A DNA stretch of 37,684 bases, from NCBI GenBank assembly GCA_025925195.1, contig JAICLU010000006.1, forward strand, positions 1-37,684, written 5' to 3'. Under the pieces are notes generated by a model. It saw nothing but the letters and a program-made list of their open reading frames with translations, was not told the DNA's origin and ran no database searches. Each line of letters starts with the position of its first letter. Position 1 is the first letter of the stretch. A program made the translations under genes and the position numbers. Origin of the DNA: Thermoleophilia bacterium. GTDB taxonomy: Bacteria > Actinomycetota > Thermoleophilia > Gaiellales > Gaiellaceae. Below, piece after piece: positions 8,006-30,367 of the stretch.

Positions 8006-9151
8006 CTGAAGCGGCGCCCCCTCATCCTTGCGGCAGTCGGGCTCGCAGTCGTCGGCGCCTTCGCCGTCGGCTATGCCGTGTCCGCCGGCAGCCGCGCGAC
8101 CGCACGGATCGCCGCGCCGCGCGTCGTCGACCAGGTGCGTCTTGCGCTCGCGTCCCGGTACTACCGGCCGGTCCCGGACCAGGTGCTGCAGTTGCACTCG
8201 GTCTCGAAGATCATCTCTGCGCTCGGTGACCCGTACACGACGTATCTCGCGCCGGATGCGTACCGGCTCGTCCGGCAGGAGACGTCGTCGGCCTACGGCG
8301 GCATCGCGGTCGGCGTCCTGCCGTCGCCGCGCGGGCTCGTGGTCGCCTCGCTGCGCAGCGGCCCGGCGCGGCGCGCGGGAGTTCGCGTCGGCGACACGAT
8401 CGTGCGCATCGACGGCGTCGCGACGGCGTCGCTGAGCCCGGCTGCGGCGATGGCGAGGATCCTCGGCCGGCCCGGGACGCCGGTGCGACTGCAGTTGTTG
8501 CGCGGCGGCGACCGCGTCGACGTGCGCGTGCGGAGGCAGCGGATCGAGGCGCCGACCGTCGGCGCGCGCCTGATCTCGTTCGCCGGCCGCCGGTGGGGCG
8601 ACGTGCAGCTGAGCAGCTTCCGCGCCGGCGCGGCGATCGTGCTGCGGCGGGAGCTGCGGTCGCTCGAGCGGCAGGGCGCGGCGGGGCTCGTGCTCGACCT
8701 GCGCGACAACCCGGGCGGGCTGCTGCGGCAAGCCGTCGCCGTCTCGTCGCTGTTCCTCGACAAGGGCGTCGTCGTGTCACTCACGGGCGCGCACCAGCCG
8801 CGCCGTGTCCTCCACGTGCTGCCGGGCTTCGCAACGCGGCTGCCGGTCGTGGTGCTCGTCGACCGGTACACGGCGAGCTCGGCCGAGATCGTGGCCGCCG
8901 CGCTGCGCGACAACCACCGCGCCACCGTGGTGGGCGAGCGGACGTTCGGCAAGGCGCTCGTCCAGATGGTCGACCGGCTCGACAACGGCGCGGCGCTCGA
9001 GCTGACGGTCGCGCAGTACCGGACCCCGTCGGGGCAGGATCTCTCCGGCTCCGGCCTGACGCCGCAGATTGCGGCGGTCGACGACACGCGGACGAAGCAG
9101 GACGAGGCGCTCGGCGTCGCCTTGCGCGTCCTGGCACGGCCCACCTCGTAA
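8006..9151 (+). CDS. S41 family (CtpA-like) PDZ serine protease, CTG start
   Basis: This is a carboxy-terminal-processing peptidase acting outside the membrane. From the proposed CTG the 381-residue protein begins M-K-R-R-P-L-I-L with a signal-anchor helix (about residues 5-25). A PDZ domain covers about 95-180 (YGGIAVGV, RAGVRVGDTIVRIDG), and the S41 domain carries Ser291 (TASSAEIVAAAL) and Lys316 (ERTFGKALVQ), 25 residues apart as in CtpA/Prc. DLRDNPGG is also conserved. No ATG, GTG or TTG exists in this frame between the end of ftsX and GTG 8078, which would cut into the membrane helix. A TATGCT box lies 9 nt upstream of the CTG. In several lineages ctpA follows ftsEX. Confidence 0.86.
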   Translation: MKRRPLILAAVGLAVVGAFAVGYAVSAGSRATARIAAPRVVDQVRLALASRYYRPVPDQVLQLHSVSKIISALGDPYTTYLAPDAYRLVRQETSSAYGGIAVGVLPSPRGLVVASLRSGPARRAGVRVGDTIVRIDGVATASLSPAAAMARILGRPGTPVRLQLLRGGDRVDVRVRRQRIEAPTVGARLISFAGRRWGDVQLSSFRAGAAIVLRRELRSLERQGAAGLVLDLRDNPGGLLRQAVAVSSLFLDKGVVVSLTGAHQPRRVLHVLPGFATRLPVVVLVDRYTASSAEIVAAALRDNHRATVVGERTFGKALVQMVDRLDNGAALELTVAQYRTPSGQDLSGSGLTPQIAAVDDTRTKQDEALGVALRVLARPTS

Positions 9152-9152
9152 G

Positions 9153-9158
9153 TACGGT
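9153..9158 (+). promoter_or_regulatory. Candidate -10 element (TACGGT) for the SUV3-like helicase
   Basis: TACGGT lies exactly 6 nt before the ATG at 9165, and no ribosome-binding site is visible, which suggests a leaderless transcript. It begins 1 nt after the stop codon of the upstream protease gene. Confidence 0.45.
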
Positions 9159-9164
9159 GCGGGC

Positions 9165-10805
9165 ATGGCCCGCGGACGTCAGAAGCGACCGAGCAGGAGC
9201 GAGCGCTACGAGCGGCGGCAGCAGCCCGTGCGCAAGCCCGTCGCCGACCTGACCGTCCGGCTGCCTTCGCGGGCGCACGAGCCCGTGAGCGTGATCGCGC
9301 ATCTCGGGCCGACCAACTCGGGGAAGACGCACGACGCGCTGCGCTTCCTCGTCGAGTCGGGCCGGGGCGTCTACGCGGCGCCGCTGCGGATGCTGGCGCA
9401 GGAAGCGCATCGCCGGCTGGCGGCCGACGTGGGGGAGGAGGGCGTCGGCCTCGTGACCGGGGAGGAGCGGGTCAATCCCGGCGCGCCGATCATCTGCTGT
9501 ACGGCCGAGATGGCGCCGATGCACGGCGAGACGCTCGTGCTCGACGAGGTGCAGTGGGCTGAGGACGAGGAGCGCGGATCCGCGTGGACGCGGCTGATGC
9601 TCGGCGGCGACTACAAGAACATTCTGCTGCTCGGGGCCGTCGAGGCGCTGCCGCTCGTCGAGGAGGCGTTCCCCGAGGTCGAGGTGCGGTTCTTCGAGCG
9701 GAAGTCGCCGCTCGAGTGGACGGGCAAGAGGGGGATCGTCGGGCTGCGGCCCGGCACGGTGATCGTGGCGTTCTCGCGGCGAGCGGTGATCGGCCTCGCC
9801 GGTGAGCTGAACCAGCTGCATCCCGGCAAGGTGGCGGTGCTGTACGGCGCGATGCCGCTCGCGTCGCGACGCGAGGAGATCGACCGCTTCCTCTCGGGCG
9901 CCGCCGAGGTGTGTGCGGCGACCGACGTGCTCGGCCACGGCGTCAACCTGCCGTGCGAGACGCTGCTCTTCGCCGAGACCGACAAGTTCGACGGCAAGGA
10001 GCGGCGCGACCTCGAGCCGTGGGAGATCGCGCAGATCGCCGGACGCGCCGGACGGTTCGGCTTCCACGAGCGCGGCCACGTCGGAGTGCTGACGGGCGTG
10101 CCGTGGGCGCATCCCGATCCCGGGCTCGTGCAGGCTGCGCTGACGCCGCACGTCGAGCTCGGCGACGGCCACTGGGGCTACCGCGTCGTCGACACCGGCC
10201 GGATCCGGCCGCAGCTCTCCGATCTCAACGTGACACGCGTCGACGAGCTCGAGCCGGCGCTGCACGCCTGGCGATCGGCGGCGCTCCGCTACTGGAGTGT
10301 CGACGGCTGGCTCGAGGTGGAGTCGATCGCGCCGCTGCTCGGGCGACTCGACGCGATCCGCGAGGCGCTGCACCACTGCCGCCGAAAGCTCGAGCTCGCG
10401 GACGTGTGGAAGCTGATGCAGGCCCCGATCGACGAGGACGCGGGCGCGCTGCTCGGAACGCTCGCGTGCGCGGTCGCCGGCGACGCGCCGCAACGGACGG
10501 TGATCGGCTGGATCCTCGATCCGCACCGGTTGCGCGCGGCGAGTCTCGAGGAGGCCGAGGCCGCGGCGCGCGAGGCATCGATTCTCCGTTGGTTTGCTCT
10601 CCAATACCCCGGCGTGGCAGGAGTGACGATCGAGAAGGCGGCGGCGCTCGAGGAGACGGCCGCGAAGCGGGTCGTCGAGGAGTTGCGTGCCGAGATCGAC
10701 GACCCGACGATCGGTCGCTGCCGTGCGTGCGGCTCTCGCACAGCGCCGTGGGCGACGCTGTGCGACCGCTGCTTCATGGCGCGCGGCTACAAGAGCCGGC
10801 GCTAG
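9165..10805 (+). CDS. SUV3-like superfamily 2 RNA helicase with C-terminal zinc ribbon
   Basis: This 546-residue protein matches the mitochondrial SUV3 family motif by motif: motif I GPTNSGKTHDALRF with Lys54, Ia APLRMLAQE, a TGEER segment, motif II DEVQ at 127-130, ATDVLGHGVNLP, and motif VI QIAGRAGRFGF from Gln290. Family members unwind RNA 3'-5' and work with PNPase in RNA decay. The N-terminus is short and very basic. The C-terminus adds a zinc ribbon, C519-x2-C522 and C533-x2-C536. It is not DEAD-box (DEVQ instead). It ends in the CTAG shared with the minus-strand gene. An RNA-decay role is family-based inference. Confidence 0.88.
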   Translation: MARGRQKRPSRSERYERRQQPVRKPVADLTVRLPSRAHEPVSVIAHLGPTNSGKTHDALRFLVESGRGVYAAPLRMLAQEAHRRLAADVGEEGVGLVTGEERVNPGAPIICCTAEMAPMHGETLVLDEVQWAEDEERGSAWTRLMLGGDYKNILLLGAVEALPLVEEAFPEVEVRFFERKSPLEWTGKRGIVGLRPGTVIVAFSRRAVIGLAGELNQLHPGKVAVLYGAMPLASRREEIDRFLSGAAEVCAATDVLGHGVNLPCETLLFAETDKFDGKERRDLEPWEIAQIAGRAGRFGFHERGHVGVLTGVPWAHPDPGLVQAALTPHVELGDGHWGYRVVDTGRIRPQLSDLNVTRVDELEPALHAWRSAALRYWSVDGWLEVESIAPLLGRLDAIREALHHCRRKLELADVWKLMQAPIDEDAGALLGTLACAVAGDAPQRTVIGWILDPHRLRAASLEEAEAAAREASILRWFALQYPGVAGVTIEKAAALEETAAKRVVEELRAEIDDPTIGRCRACGSRTAPWATLCDRCFMARGYKSRR

Positions 10806-11209
10806 CTCGCGAGATGCAGGACGCGCGCGAGCCGTCGCGTGCGCGACTTCGGCGGTTCCGTCTGCGTGAGCATCGCCATCCCGATCTCGAACGCGCCGAG
10901 CATGGCGTGCGGTAGCCAGTGACGTGTGCCGCGCTTGCGGGCGCCGGTCGCCAGCGGGATTGCTGCGAGCGCGGCACCGCTCATCGCGTCGAGCGCGAGG
11001 TGCAGCCTCATCGGGATCACGTTCTTCAGGCTGAGCTCGTAATCGGTGAGGTTGGAGTAGATCGCGGCGGCGACGCCGTTCACGCGGGGCGTAAGGCCCT
11101 CCGGGCTCGCGCTGTCGAGGTGGAGGACTGTCGGGGCTGCGATCAGGGTGGGGCCGACGACGTGGTCGACGGCACTGTGGACGCTGGTGGGTATCACACG
11201 GAGTCTCAT
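10802..11209 (-). CDS. Small multi-pass membrane protein (SPW-repeat-like), function unknown
   Basis: This 135-residue protein has about four hydrophobic stretches (near residues 16-30, 43-55, 68-87 and 98-115). Conserved-looking text includes VIPTSVHSAVDHVVG, SNLTDYEL, and MRLHLALDAMSGAALAAIP followed by HAMLGAFEIGMAMLTQTEPP. I know this pattern from small uncharacterised SPW-type membrane proteins, but no function is assigned. It lies 30 bp after the hotdog gene on the same strand and is probably co-transcribed with it. Its TAG and that of the helicase are both supplied by one CTAG. An AGAGG is only 1 nt from the ATG, so the start is not certain. Confidence 0.7.
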   Translation of the reverse strand: MRLRVIPTSVHSAVDHVVGPTLIAAPTVLHLDSASPEGLTPRVNGVAAAIYSNLTDYELSLKNVIPMRLHLALDAMSGAALAAIPLATGARKRGTRHWLPHAMLGAFEIGMAMLTQTEPPKSRTRRLARVLHLAS

Positions 11210-11239: not shown

Positions 11240-11644
11240 TTATCGCAGGATCAGCTGACTGCAGCGAAAGAGCGCCATCGTGCGGGCCTCGGCGTCCCGC
11301 ACCGTCGCGTCCCAGAGCTGCGTCGTCCGGCCGCCGTGGACGAGCCGCGCCTCGCAGGTGATCGTGCCCTCCTTCGCGGAGCGGAGGAAGTTCGTCTTCA
11401 GCTCGATCGTCGTGAAGCCGATCGCTCCGTCGGGCAGGGTCAGGATGCAGCCGTAGCCGCACGCGGTGTCGGCGAGCGACACGACGGTGCCGGCGTGCAC
11501 GTAGCCGTTCGGCGCAAAGTGGTCGCGCCGCAGCTCGAGCCGCGCGCGGACGAGGCCGTCGTCCGCACCGTCGAACTCGATGCCCAGGAGGCCCGGTAGC
11601 AGGTCGGCGCCGGCCTGCTGGAGTGCGTCGAGCGAGACGTCCAC
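11240..11644 (-). CDS. Hotdog-fold thioesterase (PaaI/YdiI family)
   Basis: This 134-residue single hotdog domain has the PaaI-type active-site region NGYVHAGTVVSLADTACGYG (about residues 46-65), followed by ELKTNFLRSAKEG and VHGGRTTQLWDATV. The family hydrolyses acyl-CoA thioesters as tetramers in the cytosol. The exact substrate is not predictable; aryl- or hydroxyaryl-CoA is common. The GTG start is preceded at 7 nt by TAGGGT on this strand. That box shares its TA with the -10 box of the divergent smpB gene. The small membrane protein gene follows. Confidence 0.88.
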   Translation of the reverse strand: MDVSLDALQQAGADLLPGLLGIEFDGADDGLVRARLELRRDHFAPNGYVHAGTVVSLADTACGYGCILTLPDGAIGFTTIELKTNFLRSAKEGTITCEARLVHGGRTTQLWDATVRDAEARTMALFRCSQLILR

Positions 11645-11651
11645 GGGGGCG

Positions 11652-11661
11652 ACCCTACACT
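11652..11661. promoter_or_regulatory. Overlapping divergent -10 elements between the thioesterase gene and smpB
   Basis: The decamer ACCCTACACT reads as TACACT on the plus strand (11656-11661, 6 nt before the smpB GTG at 11668) and as TAGGGT on the minus strand (11657-11652, 7 nt before the thioesterase GTG at 11644). The two boxes share the central TA. Both transcripts would be leaderless. Confidence 0.55.
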
Positions 11662-11667
11662 TGGCGC

Positions 11668-12123
11668 GTGGCCGAGAAGCTCATCGTCGACAACCGCCGC
11701 GCGCGGCACGACTACCACCTCTCCGACAAGGTCGAGGCCGGCCTCGTGTTGAGCGGGACCGAGGTGAAGTCTCTGCGGAGCGGGCAGGCAACGCTCCAGC
11801 AGGCCTACGCCGAGGTGCGCGAGCGCGAGGCGTGGTTGAACGGGCTGCACATCCCCGAGTACGTGCAGGGGAACCGGTCGAATCACGATCCCGACCGGCC
11901 GCGGAAGCTCCTGTTGCACCGCCGCGAGATCGAGCGGATGTACGCCCAGGTGCGCGAGAAGGGCTTCACGGTCGTGCCGACGCGCGTCTACTTCAAGGAC
12001 GGCAAGGTCAAGGTCGAGATCGCGCTCGCGCGCGGCAAGGAGGTCAGGGACAAGCGGCGCGACATCGCCGAGCGCGACGCGAAGCGCCAGATGGATCGCG
12101 CGCTCAAGGAGGCGCGGCGGTAG
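11668..12123 (+). CDS. smpB: SsrA-binding protein SmpB
   Basis: SmpB binds tmRNA and places it in the A site of stalled ribosomes for trans-translation. The 151-residue length and motifs fit: VDNRRARHDYHLSDKVEAGL, GTEVKSLRSG, then HIPEY and NHDPDRPRKLLLHRREI, KGFTVVPTRVYFKDGKVKVEIALARGK split over the next segment, and the basic tail RDIAERDAKRQMDRALK that folds into the mRNA channel. The GTG start lies 6 nt after TACACT. The tmRNA gene begins 26 bp after the stop, the classical smpB-ssrA pairing. Confidence 0.97.
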   Translation: MAEKLIVDNRRARHDYHLSDKVEAGLVLSGTEVKSLRSGQATLQQAYAEVREREAWLNGLHIPEYVQGNRSNHDPDRPRKLLLHRREIERMYAQVREKGFTVVPTRVYFKDGKVKVEIALARGKEVRDKRRDIAERDAKRQMDRALKEARR

Positions 12124-12149: not shown

Positions 12150-12517
12150 GGGGGCGACCTGGCTTCGACGTGGTCGAATCACCCGAATGAGCTGCAAGCC
12201 GAGGTCGCCGGTAGGCCTCGTAAATCAACCGGCAAAAACCAAATGCGAACAAGAACGATCTCGCACTCGCTGCCTAATCTCGTCAAGAGTTAGTCCAGCG
12301 ACGCCCCCTCGGATGGGCCTGTGATCCGGGGCGGCGTTAACCAACAGGCTCGGCACCGAGAGAACGCCAATCGCTCGAGGTGCGACAGCTAAGGATGGCT
12401 AACGCGTCGGCAGGGCGGTGGCACTCCGGCCGGCGTGTGAGCAAGAAGTGCCGCCTATGCTTGTAGACGCTCAGCTCGGTGCGGCTGCGGACGCGGGTTC
12501 GATTCCCGCCGCCTCCA
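12150..12517 (+). ncRNA. ssrA: tmRNA (transfer-messenger RNA)
   Basis: The 368-nt RNA rescues stalled ribosomes and tags the nascent peptide. The acceptor stem pairs GGGGGCG (12150-12156) with CGCCTCC (12510-12516), including the typical G-U third pair, with discriminator A at 12517. CCA is not encoded. The 5' CTGGCTTCGACG segment is characteristic. The T arm is GCGGG-TTCGATT-CCCGC (12493-12509). The tag reading frame begins at GCG 12245 and ends at TAA 12275-12277, giving ANKNDLALAA after the tRNA-borne alanine. The C-terminal LAA is the usual protease signal. It is the partner of the upstream smpB. Confidence 0.97.
12245..12277 (+). other. ssrA: tmRNA proteolysis-tag coding segment
   Basis: The resume codon GCG is followed by nine more sense codons and TAA, encoding A-N-K-N-D-L-A-L-A-A. 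This is 10 codons, the same as the E. coli tag ANDENYALAA, with K replacing D, N replacing E, and D-L replacing N-Y. Confidence 0.88.
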
Positions 12518-12539: not shown

Positions 12540-13567
12540 CTAGGCCGTCTCTGCAGGCGGCGGCCCGGCTGTCGGCTGAGGTTGCTCGCGGCGACGAAGC
12601 GGAGGCATCGCGTTCCGTGCGCGGCCGAGGACGCGCTGCGTCGCCGCCACGTTCGAGACGGTCACGGCCAGCAGCAGGACGCTGCCGTTGAAGACCGGGG
12701 TGACCCACGACTCGACGCCCTTCAACTGCAGTCCGGTGATCCCGACGGCGACGAGGAAGATCGCGATCACCGTGCCCCACACGTTGAAGAAACCGGTTCG
12801 GATGGCGGTCGCGCCGAGGAACGCCGCCGCGTACGCGGGCAGCAGGAACGACGGGCCCGAGGTCGCATCGGCTGCGCCGACCTGCGCCGTCACGAGGATC
12901 CCGCCGACCGCCGCGAGCAGGCCCGCGAGCACGAATGCGGTCGAGCGCGCACGACCCGTATGGATGCCGGACAGCCTCGCGGCGCCGCGGTTGGCCCCGG
13001 TCGCGCGCATCTGCCGGCCGAGCACGGTGAACTCGAGCAACACCCAGAGCACGACTGCCGTGAAGAGCGCGTAGTACACGGGCAGCACCACCAGGTGCTT
13101 CGTCTGCGCGAGCGTCGTGAATCCGGCCGGCGTGCCCCCGTAGATCGGCTCGCTGCCGCTCGAGATCCACTGGACGAGACCCTCGAGGATCGTCGCGACG
13201 CCGATCGTCGCGATGAAGGAGTTGATACCGAGTCCGACGACGAGCAGCGCGTTGGCCACGCCGATCGCGATGCCGACGCCGAGCGTCGCGAGGATCGCCG
13301 TCTGCCACGAGAGGCCGTAGTGCGTGATCAGCTTCAGCACCAGGTACTGCGACATCCCGAGCGTCGCGCCGAGCGACAGGTCGAACTCCGCGACGACGAG
13401 CACGATCATCGCCGCGAACGCCATGAAGATCCCCGGCGGCTGCGACGTGAGGATGTCCTGGACGTTCCCGCTCGTCGGGAACTTGCTCGGCAGCCACGCC
13501 GAGAATCCCCCGAATACGAGGACGAAGACGACCAGCAGTCCCCACCGAGACAGGAGCCGCGACGCGG

Positions 13568-13571
<4 letters not shown>
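12540..13571 (-). CDS. Sugar-type ABC transporter permease (RbsC/MglC-like)
   Basis: This 343-residue membrane protein has about nine to ten hydrophobic helices. It carries the BPD_transp_2 family's VVAEFDLSLGATLGMSQYL near residue 60, GINSFIATIGVATILEGL near 115, GRQMRATGANRGAARLSGI near 195, and AAFLGATAIRTGFFNVWGT near 260. The family forms the channel of carbohydrate-uptake (CUT2) importers but also carries other small molecules. The ATG overlaps the stop of the ATPase gene by 4 bp. It ends with a Pro/Gln-rich tail. It is the last gene of the importer operon and converges on ssrA. Confidence 0.92.
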
Positions 13572-15081
<1,510 letters not shown>

Positions 15082-15109
<28 letters not shown>

Positions 15110-16218
15110 GCCGACTTGAAGTCGTACGAGTTCGCGATCGCGGCGCCCGTGGTCGAGCCCGCGTTCGTCTTGTCCATCAGGCGGAACGGCACGTTGTACT
15201 TCACCTGCGGCTTGTGGTTCATCGCGCGGAGCACAGCGTCCATCGCGAACCAGCCGTACTCGCTCGTGTCAGGCCCGATCTCGACGAAGTTCGCGCCCTT
15301 CCGGATCTGCGGCAGGAAGAAGTCCCCGTCCGTGCCGAGCCCCGTGATGTCCTTGCGCCCGGTCGCCTGGACTGCCTGGGCGAAGGTGCCGGCCCACGAC
15401 TCCGACAGGCAGAAGATGTACTTCGCCTGCGGGTATTTGCGGAACAGGGCGGCCATCCGCTGCGCGCCCGAAGCGGTGCCGATATCGGTGGCGGGCGACT
15501 GCGTCGTGTTGATGATCTGGTACTTCGAGCCCGCGTCCTTGATGCCCTGGCGGAACCCGGCCAGGGCGACCTCGAGATCGGAGAACTGCGGCGAGTCGTA
15601 CGCGAGGATCTTCGCGCCCTTGCCGCCGGTGTTCTGGACTATCCACTCGGCGAGCCGGTAGCCCTCGGTCCGTTCGCGCGGGCCGACTTGCGCGACGAGA
15701 CCGGGCGGCGGGTTCTTGACACCGTTGAAGATGTCGACGAACGGCGCGCCGGCCGACTTCGCCTTGGCGATGCCCGGTGCCATGAGCGCGGGGACGCCTG
15801 CGCTCATCACGACCGCGTTCGCGCCGCCCGTGACCGCAGTGTTGATCGCGGCGAGCCACCCGGGCGGGGTGCCGTTGCCGTAGACGACCTTGCCGCTCCA
15901 GCCGATCGCCTTCGCCGCGTCGACGACGCCGCCGGCCGACCGCTGCGGCAGCGGCGCCGGAACGCTGTAGATCGAGACGACGCTCTTGCCACTCGGGACC
16001 TTGCCCGGGGAGGTCTTCGGCCCGGTGAACTTCGTCATCGGCTTCCGTGCGGCCGCGACGTCGGCCTTCGCCTTCGCCAGTGTGAGCTTCGGCCCGGCGG
16101 CCGCATGGCGAGCGGCCCCGGCGGTCGGAATCGCAGCCGCGGCCATGACGGCGATCGCGGCGGCAGCTGCCGTCGGCAGGAGCAGCCTGCGTCCGCGATG
16201 GGCCCTCGATACGTACAT
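15082..16218 (-). CDS. ABC transporter substrate-binding protein (periplasmic-binding family 4 type)
   Basis: This 378-residue exported protein starts with a long signal peptide (RRLLLPTAAAAAIAVMAAAA, cleavage near the Ala-rich PTAGAARHAAA). A type I periplasmic-binding fold follows: KSVVSIYSVPAPLPQRS, INTAVTGGANAVVMSAG, KILAYDSPQFSDLEVALAGF and ITGLGTDGDFFLPQIRKG, with the DUF-like EYGWFAMDAVLRAM near the end. No lipobox Cys is evident. The ATG was chosen for its AGGAGG at 16228-16223, 4 nt upstream. It is the first gene of the importer operon and diverges from the aldehyde dehydrogenase gene. The ligand is unknown; an aromatic substrate is possible from context. Confidence 0.88.
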
Positions 16219-16294
16219 GCGCCCTCCTCGATTGTTGATCGTGAGCCGAGCTAAACAGGTGCAAGCAGGCCGGTCAACCACCGCTTGTGTCGAT

Positions 16295-16320
16295 TGCACA
16301 TCGGATGAATCCGTTGTGCA
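16295..16320. promoter_or_regulatory. 26-bp imperfect palindrome, candidate operator in the divergent region
   Basis: The arms are TGCACA and TGTGCA, with inner arms GGAT and ATCC around a GA centre. Only the two dinucleotides between outer and inner arms (TC and GT) do not match. It lies between the importer operon and the oxygenase operon, 77 bp from one start codon and 63 bp from the other. A second, weaker inverted repeat sharing the ACAACGGA half lies at about 16350-16366. Size and symmetry fit a dimeric repressor or activator; the regulator is not encoded in this window. Confidence 0.6.
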
Positions 16321-16382
16321 GCGCCGCCTGTATACGTGAGAATGTGCACACAACGGAGTGCGTCCGAACAGGAGGCCTGGAG

Positions 16383-28343: not shown

Positions 28344-29045
28344 CTACGCCGTCTCGCCGCCGTCGATCGAGATCGTCGCGCCCGTGAAATAGGCGCCTTC
28401 GTCGCTCGCGAGGAAGGCGAAGAGCGCCGCGATCTCTTCCGGCGACGCGTGGCGGCCGAGCGGGATGCCGGCATTGACCTCGGCGAGCATCGCGTCGGTG
28501 TATTCGCTGCGTTGCATCGGCGTCAGCACGTAGCCCGGACACACTGAGTTCACGCGCACCTTCGGCGCCAGCTCGAGCGCCATCGTCTTCGCCAGCAGGA
28601 TCACGCCGGCCTTCGACGCGTTGTAGTCGGCATAGAACGCGTGCCCGGTCAACCCGTTTGTCGACGCGGTCATCAGGATCACGCCGCCGTCGCCCGCCAC
28701 CATCCGCCGGGCCGCCTGCTGGGCGCAGTGGAAGACGCCCGTCAGGTTCACGTCGAGCACCCGGCGCCAGTCGGCTTCCTCGATCTCGAGGAACGGCTTG
28801 CGGATCGAGATGCCTGCGTTCGCCACGAGCACGTCGACGCCGCCGAGCAGCTCGTCGACGCGCGCGAACGCCCGCTCGACGGAGGCCGCGTCGGCCACGT
28901 CGCACAGCAGACCGGGGTCGTCGACGTCCCGGTCGGCGATCGCCGCGACGCGCGCACCTTCCTCGACGAACCGCTGCGCGGTCGCCGCGCCGATGCCGCT
29001 CGTGCCGCCGGTGACGACGACCCGCTTGCCCGCCAGACCCTTCAT
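28344..29045 (-). CDS. Short-chain dehydrogenase/reductase (SDR)
   Basis: This 233-residue classical SDR has the cofactor motif VVVTGGTSGIGAATAQRF, NAGI, Ser in ILMTASTNG, YNASKAGV for the catalytic Tyr and Lys, then RVNSVCPGYVLTPM and YFTGATISIDGGE at the C-terminus. Acidic residues after the second strand (ADRDVDD) suggest NAD preference. The substrate is unknown. The ATG lies 7 nt after TAGACT on the minus strand, whose box overlaps the -10 of the divergent aminotransferase gene. Divergent pairing suggests a shared pathway. Confidence 0.92.
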   Translation of the reverse strand: MKGLAGKRVVVTGGTSGIGAATAQRFVEEGARVAAIADRDVDDPGLLCDVADAASVERAFARVDELLGGVDVLVANAGISIRKPFLEIEEADWRRVLDVNLTGVFHCAQQAARRMVAGDGGVILMTASTNGLTGHAFYADYNASKAGVILLAKTMALELAPKVRVNSVCPGYVLTPMQRSEYTDAMLAEVNAGIPLGRHASPEEIAALFAFLASDEGAYFTGATISIDGGETA

Positions 29046-29052
29046 CGGGACG

Positions 29053-29062
29053 AGTCTATGAT
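29053..29062. promoter_or_regulatory. Overlapping divergent -10 elements between SDR and aminotransferase genes
   Basis: The decamer AGTCTATGAT reads TATGAT on the plus strand (29057-29062, 6 nt before ATG 29069) and TAGACT on the minus strand (29058-29053, 7 nt before ATG 29045). The boxes share the central TA. The layout is the same, to the base, as at 11652-11661. Confidence 0.6.
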
Positions 29063-29068
29063 CGACGG

Positions 29069-30367
29069 ATGGGCGAGGTGTCCGTGACGAGGAGCACCGA
29101 GCGCTCGGCGGCGCTGTTCGAGCGGGCGCAGCGGGCGCTCGTCGACGGTGTCTCGTCGCCGTCCCGCGGCCCGCTCAACTACCACCCGCACCCGCTCTAC
29201 ATGGCGCGCGGCTCCGGCGGCCGGATGACCGACGTCGACGGCAACGAGTACGTCGACCTCATGCTCGCCTTCGGCGCGCTCATCCACGGGCACGCGCACC
29301 CGCGCCTCGTCGACGCGATGCAGCGCGCGGTCGCCGACGGCGCCCTCACGGCGACGGCGAGCGAGGTCGAGGTCGAGGTTGCCGAGCGGATCTCGGCCGT
29401 GCACCCGTCTGCCGAGCGCGTCCGCTTCGCCAACACCGGCACCGAGGCCTGCATGGCCGCGCTCCGGCTCGTGCGCGGGTACACAGGCCGCTCGAAGATC
29501 GTGAAGTTCGAAGGCCACTACCACGGCTGGGCCGACGCCTACTCGCTGCGCTCCAACATGCCCGGCGGCCCTGACGTCGACTCCCTCGGCATCCCGGCAG
29601 GCGCGCTCGCCGACACGCTCGTCGTCCCCTGGAACGACGCCGACGCCGTCGAGCAGGCGCTCGACGCGAACCGCGGCGAGGTCGCGGCGATCGTCACCGA
29701 GCCGGTGATGGCGAACCTGGGCGTCATCCCGCCCGTCGACGGCTATCTCACGACCTTGCGCGAGCTCGCGGACGCGCACGGTGCGCTGCTCTACGTCGAC
29801 GAGACCGTGACCGGCTTCCGGCTCGGGGCCGGCGGCGCGTGCGGGCGCTTCGGCGTTCGCGCCGATCTCGTCACCTTCGGGAAGGCGCTCGGCGCCGGCT
29901 TCCCGGTCGCAGCCATCGCCGGACGCGCCGACGTGATGGACGCGCTCGCCGGCGGCGCCGTCCTCCATTACGGGACGCAGAACGCGAACCCCGCGCTGCT
30001 CGCCGTGGTGCGCGAGTCGCTCGCCCTGCTCGACGCGCCCGCGTACGCCGACCTCGAGCGGCTCGCCGACACGCTCGTGGCAGGTCTGCGTGACGCGCTC
30101 GCCGGCGAGAACGTGCTCGTGCAGTACGTCGGCCCGATGCTGCAGGTCTACTTCACCGACGGAGAGACGGACGCGATCAGGTCGTATCGCGACTTCGGCG
30201 CGCACGTCGACCGCGACCGCTTCAACAGCTTCGTGCACGCGCTCTTCGACGAGGGCGTCTACACATCGCCGTCGCCGGCGCTCCACTCGGTGCTCTGCAC
30301 CGCGCACACCGACGAGGACGTCGAGCGCGTCGTCACCGCCGCCCGCGCCGCCGCCGCACGCATCTGA
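29069..30367 (+). CDS. Class III PLP aminotransferase / aminomutase (HemL-like)
   Basis: This 432-residue PLP enzyme resembles glutamate-1-semialdehyde aminomutase and related class III aminotransferases: SPSRGPLNYHPHP, MTDVDGNEYVDLMLAFGALIHGH across the N-terminal core, FANTGTEACMAALRLVRGYTGR, KFEGHYHGWADAY, LLYVDETVTGFRLG, and Lys272 in VTFGKALGAGFPVAAIAG as the Schiff-base lysine. The following two genes are overlapping dehydrogenases, so a catabolic aminotransferase is more likely than a heme-pathway hemL; no symbol is given. The ATG follows a TATGAT box at 6 nt (leaderless). Confidence 0.9.
   Translation: MGEVSVTRSTERSAALFERAQRALVDGVSSPSRGPLNYHPHPLYMARGSGGRMTDVDGNEYVDLMLAFGALIHGHAHPRLVDAMQRAVADGALTATASEVEVEVAERISAVHPSAERVRFANTGTEACMAALRLVRGYTGRSKIVKFEGHYHGWADAYSLRSNMPGGPDVDSLGIPAGALADTLVVPWNDADAVEQALDANRGEVAAIVTEPVMANLGVIPPVDGYLTTLRELADAHGALLYVDETVTGFRLGAGGACGRFGVRADLVTFGKALGAGFPVAAIAGRADVMDALAGGAVLHYGTQNANPALLAVVRESLALLDAPAYADLERLADTLVAGLRDALAGENVLVQYVGPMLQVYFTDGETDAIRSYRDFGAHVDRDRFNSFVHALFDEGVYTSPSPALHSVLCTAHTDEDVERVVTAARAAAARI

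Follow-up and report, generated by a model that had tools for sequence, protein, structure and literature searches.

Bidirectional promoters, in which one -10 region binds RNA polymerase in either orientation, have been described, and their divergent transcription starts lie most often 18 bp apart, with separations of 10 and 23 bp also common (PMC12825309, PMC10268837). In E. coli, low-level firing from the two sides of such promoters is independent, and competition arises only if one side is strongly activated (PMC12825309). In the leaderless genes of Actinobacteria, a TANNNT box precedes the start codon by ~12 bp (Zheng et al., 2011, PMC3160421; Cortes et al., 2013, PMC3898074). In M. tuberculosis, the genes prpD and Rv1129c are adjacent, divergent, and both leaderless, and closely juxtaposed divergent promoters have been called common in this organism (PMC3898074). 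A search of the open-access literature found no paper describing leaderless pairs that share a box.

The locus described here lies between smpB and a thioesterase gene within a window of 37,684 nt, the window being the whole stretch of DNA that was analysed, and belongs to a probably metagenome-derived genome (G000) of 2.62 Mb in 211 contigs that is 82% complete. The named relatives whose smpB genes come nearest are Thermoleophilia and Actinomycetota MAGs; in one of these, a Gaiellaceae MAG, the sequence upstream of smpB is identical to that of a genome in the family of the window (L042 and L022), and this family is probably Gaiellaceae-like. The spacer separating the two genes very probably serves as a core promoter in both directions, belonging to the 23-bp kind and leaderless on both sides, for which we infer the transcription starts, the sigma factor, and mutual exclusion.

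The spacer and its flanking genes

The features of the locus are as follows.

10802..11209, minus strand: gene for a membrane-type protein with an SPW domain, following the thioesterase gene on the same strand after a 30-nt gap
11240..11644, minus strand: gene for a 134-aa thioesterase of the hotdog fold (4HBT), with a GTG start (PF03061, E 5.9e-18; TIGR00369, E 7e-24)
11645..11667, no strand assigned: spacer with both predicted core promoters, 23 nt, flanked by divergent GTG codons
11652..11657, minus strand: predicted thioesterase -10 box TAGGGT, ending 7 nt before the GTG; TANNNT kept in 8/8 adjacent genomes
11656..11657, no strand assigned: TA common to both -10 boxes, predicted T-12/A-11 on either strand
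11656..11661, plus strand: predicted smpB -10 box TACACT, ending 6 nt before the GTG; TANNNT at 73/85 family smpB loci
11668..12123, plus strand: smpB, SsrA-binding protein, 151 aa, GTG start (PF01668, E 2.1e-59; PRK05422, E 3.4e-61)
12150..12517, plus strand: ssrA (tmRNA), tag ANKNDLALAA, just downstream of smpB

Read directly from the sequence, the divergent GTG codons at 11644 (minus strand) and 11668 (plus strand) enclose 23 nt (11645-11667), inside which the decamer ACCCTACACT (11652-11661) contains TACACT and TAGGGT as -10 elements on opposite strands that overlap by TA, the form of overlap found in the promoter class of Warman et al. (2021). The first-pass annotation had located the two GTG codons, the 23-nt spacer, the decamer, both boxes with their 6- and 7-nt distances, and the shared TA, and all of these coordinates are exact. 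Measured from the first T of its box, the smpB GTG is 12 nt away and the thioesterase GTG 13 nt, both of which are modal distances in G000, and both genes thus carry TANNNT at the ~12 bp typical of leaderless genes. From the box positions alone, the divergent starts are predicted to lie 23-24 bp apart, a distance that would fall within the 7-25 bp of the Warman class. The smpB reading frame stays open upstream to another GTG at 11623, but preference goes to the start at 11668, where both the homology to SmpB and the starts of relatives fall. No Shine-Dalgarno sequence was seen before the smpB GTG.

The smpB stop codon is followed after 26 nt by ssrA on the same strand, placing the trans-translation partners in tandem. 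Positions 9069-10805 of the window hold a gene for a DEXQ-box helicase of the Suv3 type, whose C-terminal tail is Cys-rich; this gene is found upstream of smpB in many relatives, where the helicase and smpB neighbourhood forms a lasting cluster of RNA-related genes. On the minus strand at 12540-16353 lie genes for a sugar-type ABC transporter permease, an ABC ATPase, and a periplasmic binding protein, the permease and ATPase calls overlapping.

Leaderless boxes and shared-TA pairs in the genome and its lineage

A simple gene caller based on open reading frame length and third-position GC was run on 257 kb and then on 737 kb of G000. Over the 737 kb, TANNNT ends 6, 7, 8, 9, and 10 nt before candidate ATG or GTG starts 49, 33, 20, 12, and 10 times, respectively, and only 0-6 times at each of the other distances from 0 to 29 nt. 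G000 shows the leaderless TANNNT signature as a class, with a box 6-10 nt before the start of 123 of the 650 called genes (19% look leaderless). A scan for sigma-70 promoters that included the -35 element returned no matches between positions 11000 and 12700, and no -35 consensus was found among the 123 leaderless-like genes; an account of the locus based on a -35 element was therefore dropped.

The full two-sided pattern, CAY-N7-ANNNTANNNT-N6-RTG, was counted against a control consisting of the same pattern read backwards. G000 contains 11 matches versus 0 in the control, and all 11 are flanked on both sides by open reading frames with coding-type GC. Within the window, a second site of identical geometry reads CATCGGGACGAGTCTATGATCGACGGATG at positions 29043-29071, between genes for a short-chain dehydrogenase (minus strand) and a class-III aminotransferase (plus strand).

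29046..29068, no strand assigned: second shared-TA divergent candidate promoter, minus box 29053-29058, plus box 29057-29062

Across the 103 genomes of the family, the shared-TA geometry occurs 410 times versus 81 in the control (117 versus 10 in the window's own genus), the 18-nt geometry 190 times versus 89, and adjacent boxes without overlap, at an offset two bases longer, 19 times versus 2. Sampling of G000 and G253 gave 161 divergent pairs, of which 19 are leaderless-boxed on both sides and 10 of these 19 share the TA exactly, while each of 11 altered motifs placed at the shared-TA offset yielded 0 or 1 pairs. The distant family member G009 gave no double-leaderless pair among 13 divergent pairs in 100 kb. 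Judged by these sequence counts, the shared-TA arrangement found between smpB and the thioesterase gene exceeds chance. An explanation that we consider unlikely, while still giving it some weight, is that two independent leaderless promoters have been packed together by chance in a compact genome and that the sharing is without functional consequence. The density of genes and the high proportion that look leaderless are compatible with such packing, and both promoters may fire independently, as do low-activity bidirectional promoters of E. coli (PMC12825309), but the shared-TA offset is far commoner in the family than the offset two bases longer, and a single offset accounts for 10 of the 19 double-leaderless pairs.

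In a lineage comparison whose reversed control leaves differing leaderless fractions among lineages uncorrected, 10 genomes from other families of the same order gave 40 shared-TA matches versus 7 in the control; 145 genomes from other orders of the class, pooled, showed no excess (223 versus 201), with family f9 among them at 60 versus 23; and 178 genomes from the phylum outside the class showed a weak excess (802 versus 626). G181 stands at the top of the other-family genomes of the order, with 15 matches versus 0. A phylum-wide extension of the geometry is unsupported by these counts, in which only the same order stands out.

The smpB promoter in relatives

Matches to smpB were obtained in 86 genomes and, with one partial match (G207) left out, 85 family loci were examined. 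At 73 of these, a TANNNT box, typically TACAAT or TACACT, ends 5-10 nt before a start, both with and without a divergent gene, which argues that the smpB half of the promoter is old. The other 12 loci have no TANNNT box at the corresponding place and were dropped before the counts that follow. The smpB start is farthest from its box in L144, at 10 nt, and a short leader on smpB is possible in relatives with starts up to this distance.

The thioesterase gene is the divergent neighbour of smpB at 8 of the 85 loci. Comparison of the orthologous spacer across relatives, a check proposed by the first-pass annotation, shows both boxes kept in all eight pairs, with the thioesterase start (GTG in seven, TTG in one) 7-8 nt from its box. 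The thioesterase box appears in these loci as TAGGGT, TAGGTT, TACGGT, or TAGGCT, in which the T, the A, and the last T are constant. This pattern of variation bears on a different reading of TAGGGT, namely that its AGGG, 8 nt before the thioesterase GTG, is a Shine-Dalgarno-like element for a leadered thioesterase mRNA starting inside smpB. The distance to the GTG would be workable; the G run, however, is unconserved, being lost among the eight orthologous spacers (TACGGT, TAGGCT, TAGGTT) while the -10 positions persist, and it is absent from the genome-wide leaderless boxes in 737 kb of G000, so that we regard a ribosome-binding role as highly improbable.

The outer base needed for the minus-strand box (plus-strand A) is kept at all 10 loci with a divergent gene versus 11 of the 63 others (Fisher 5.7e-7, kinship ignored), and is absent from all seven near relatives in which the thioesterase gene is not adjacent. 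Phylogenetic correction, on a tree that left out L035, L036, and L037 as copies of L135, L006, and L138, retained three independent pairs on well-supported branches, of which 2.8 agreed on average (sign test p 0.25), and with three independent contrasts the tree by itself is therefore no proof of selection. Kinship thus weakens any plain argument from conservation across the smpB loci of the family, just these three pairs being informative, and that argument was set aside.

Two relatives (L138/L282 and L140/L274) carry an SPW-domain gene between the thioesterase gene and smpB. At both split loci, TAGGGT still stands 6-7 nt ahead of the thioesterase start, its mirror having decayed to TACAGG or TACACG, and smpB retains TACACT with a mirror that reads TAGGGA. 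As these predicted boxes read, either gene has retained its own half of the promoter and the mirror box has decayed, making the losses complementary. Among thioesterase genes elsewhere in the family, none of 13 has a leaderless box when starts are sought within 30 nt of the aligned start, these 13 being among the best 23 of the matches in the 57 genomes examined, with weaker paralogues left out. The SPW-domain gene adjoins smpB in L137, L138, L140, L141, and L142, where a sequence similar to TTGCCGCCGGAGCCC is found repeatedly ahead of the smpB box, and in L138 and L140, the two loci read over their whole length, this gene has a GGAGG-like Shine-Dalgarno sequence, giving a leadered gene opposite a leaderless one.

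The split loci also help to weigh a reading in which the promoter serves smpB alone, TAGGGT being a by-product of the CCC common before TACANT and the thioesterase gene being expressed from elsewhere or by read-through. CCTA is indeed common before the smpB box even without a divergent gene, the 11 of 63 such loci being those that read TANNNT on the minus strand. A by-product would sit poorly with a thioesterase gene that, once separated, retains TAGGGT rather than TACACT, with a start 7-8 nt from its box in all eight adjacent genomes, and with a minus-strand -7T kept in all eight while inner bases vary and in 0/7 of the near relatives without adjacency; we consider this reading improbable.

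The TA of the smpB box is also shared by different divergent genes in two other genera, a PLP-enzyme-like open reading frame of 492 aa in L170 and a GNAT-like one in L200 (names read from the translations), with minus-strand box distances of 5 nt, below the G000 mode, and 6 nt, respectively. In L185, the divergent leaderless neighbour has a box of its own, displaced outward by 4 nt. In L010, L032, and L166, the Suv3-like helicase gene leads straight into smpB and ends ~37-43 nt ahead of the reference start of smpB, and in seven of the eight thioesterase genomes a reverse-oriented thioesterase cassette lies between helicase and smpB; no helicase was found within the stretch covered in L009. This synteny suggests that the thioesterase gene, together with the SPW gene in some genomes, entered beside a pre-existing smpB promoter. 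Probably the thioesterase gene came to lie against the existing smpB promoter and acquired a promoter of its own from the mirror side, a direction of change that we infer from the comparison of these loci.

Proposed mechanism and comparison with known systems

In the bidirectional promoter proposed here, two TANNNT -10 elements would overlap head to head by one TA, and RNA polymerase with the housekeeping sigma factor would melt the site in either orientation, one at a time. RNA would begin at one GTG or the other, or no more than a base away, yielding leaderless mRNAs for both smpB and the thioesterase gene. Polymerases would be unable to occupy both orientations at once, to judge from the geometry and from the promoters described in PMC12825309. 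The first-pass annotation had proposed a bidirectional leaderless promoter with a shared TA, which the genome-wide statistics and the relatives support, and had further suggested that smpB would be tied to the thioesterase gene; this second part is not supported: the linkage occurs at 8 of the 85 loci examined, and bidirectional promoters of E. coli fire independently at low activity, competing only if one side is strongly activated (PMC12825309).

Such a locus comes close to the smallest size that is plausible for the control of two genes, with 23 bp, no untranslated leaders, and one melting site. Because the spacing between start codon and -10 box is rigid, shared-TA promoters are recognisable from sequence alone, and two-way transcription can therefore be tallied in uncultured lineages without RNA. 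The locus also offers testable cases of promoter capture, in which the promoter of a housekeeping gene provides expression to another gene from its reverse side, and of promoter splitting through complementary loss. The evidence is about evenly balanced on a broader model for the whole order, in which the shared TA would be the favoured promoter of divergent leaderless pairs, new genes would be captured with their start codon 7 nt from the mirror side, split halves would decay complementarily, and the smpB promoter would have been so used by at least three unrelated genes.

Bidirectional promoters as such are already known, and the wider interest here lies in their enrichment in this order and in the complementary decay at split loci. 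The site resembles actinobacterial leaderless genes in box and spacing (PMC3160421, PMC3898074), and the -35 consensus absent from the leaderless genes of M. tuberculosis (PMC3898074) is not visible in G000 either. The portions of these two papers used here take leaderless genes singly and leave a shared TA undescribed, unlike the smpB/thioesterase site. The prpD/Rv1129c pair (PMC3898074) is similar in adjacency, divergence, and leaderless expression on both sides, the last being predicted here. A shared, pseudo-symmetrical -10 element is also a feature of the promoters that Warman et al. (2021) reported, as described in PMC12825309 and PMC10268837, and the predicted separation of 23-24 bp would correspond to their 23-bp class. 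The site differs from those promoters in its TANNNT box and in its two predicted RNAs, both of which would be leaderless mRNAs coding for the products of divergent genes, and whereas 18 bp is the commonest spacing among the Warman promoters, the family of the window has more matches to the 23-nt form than to the 18-nt form.
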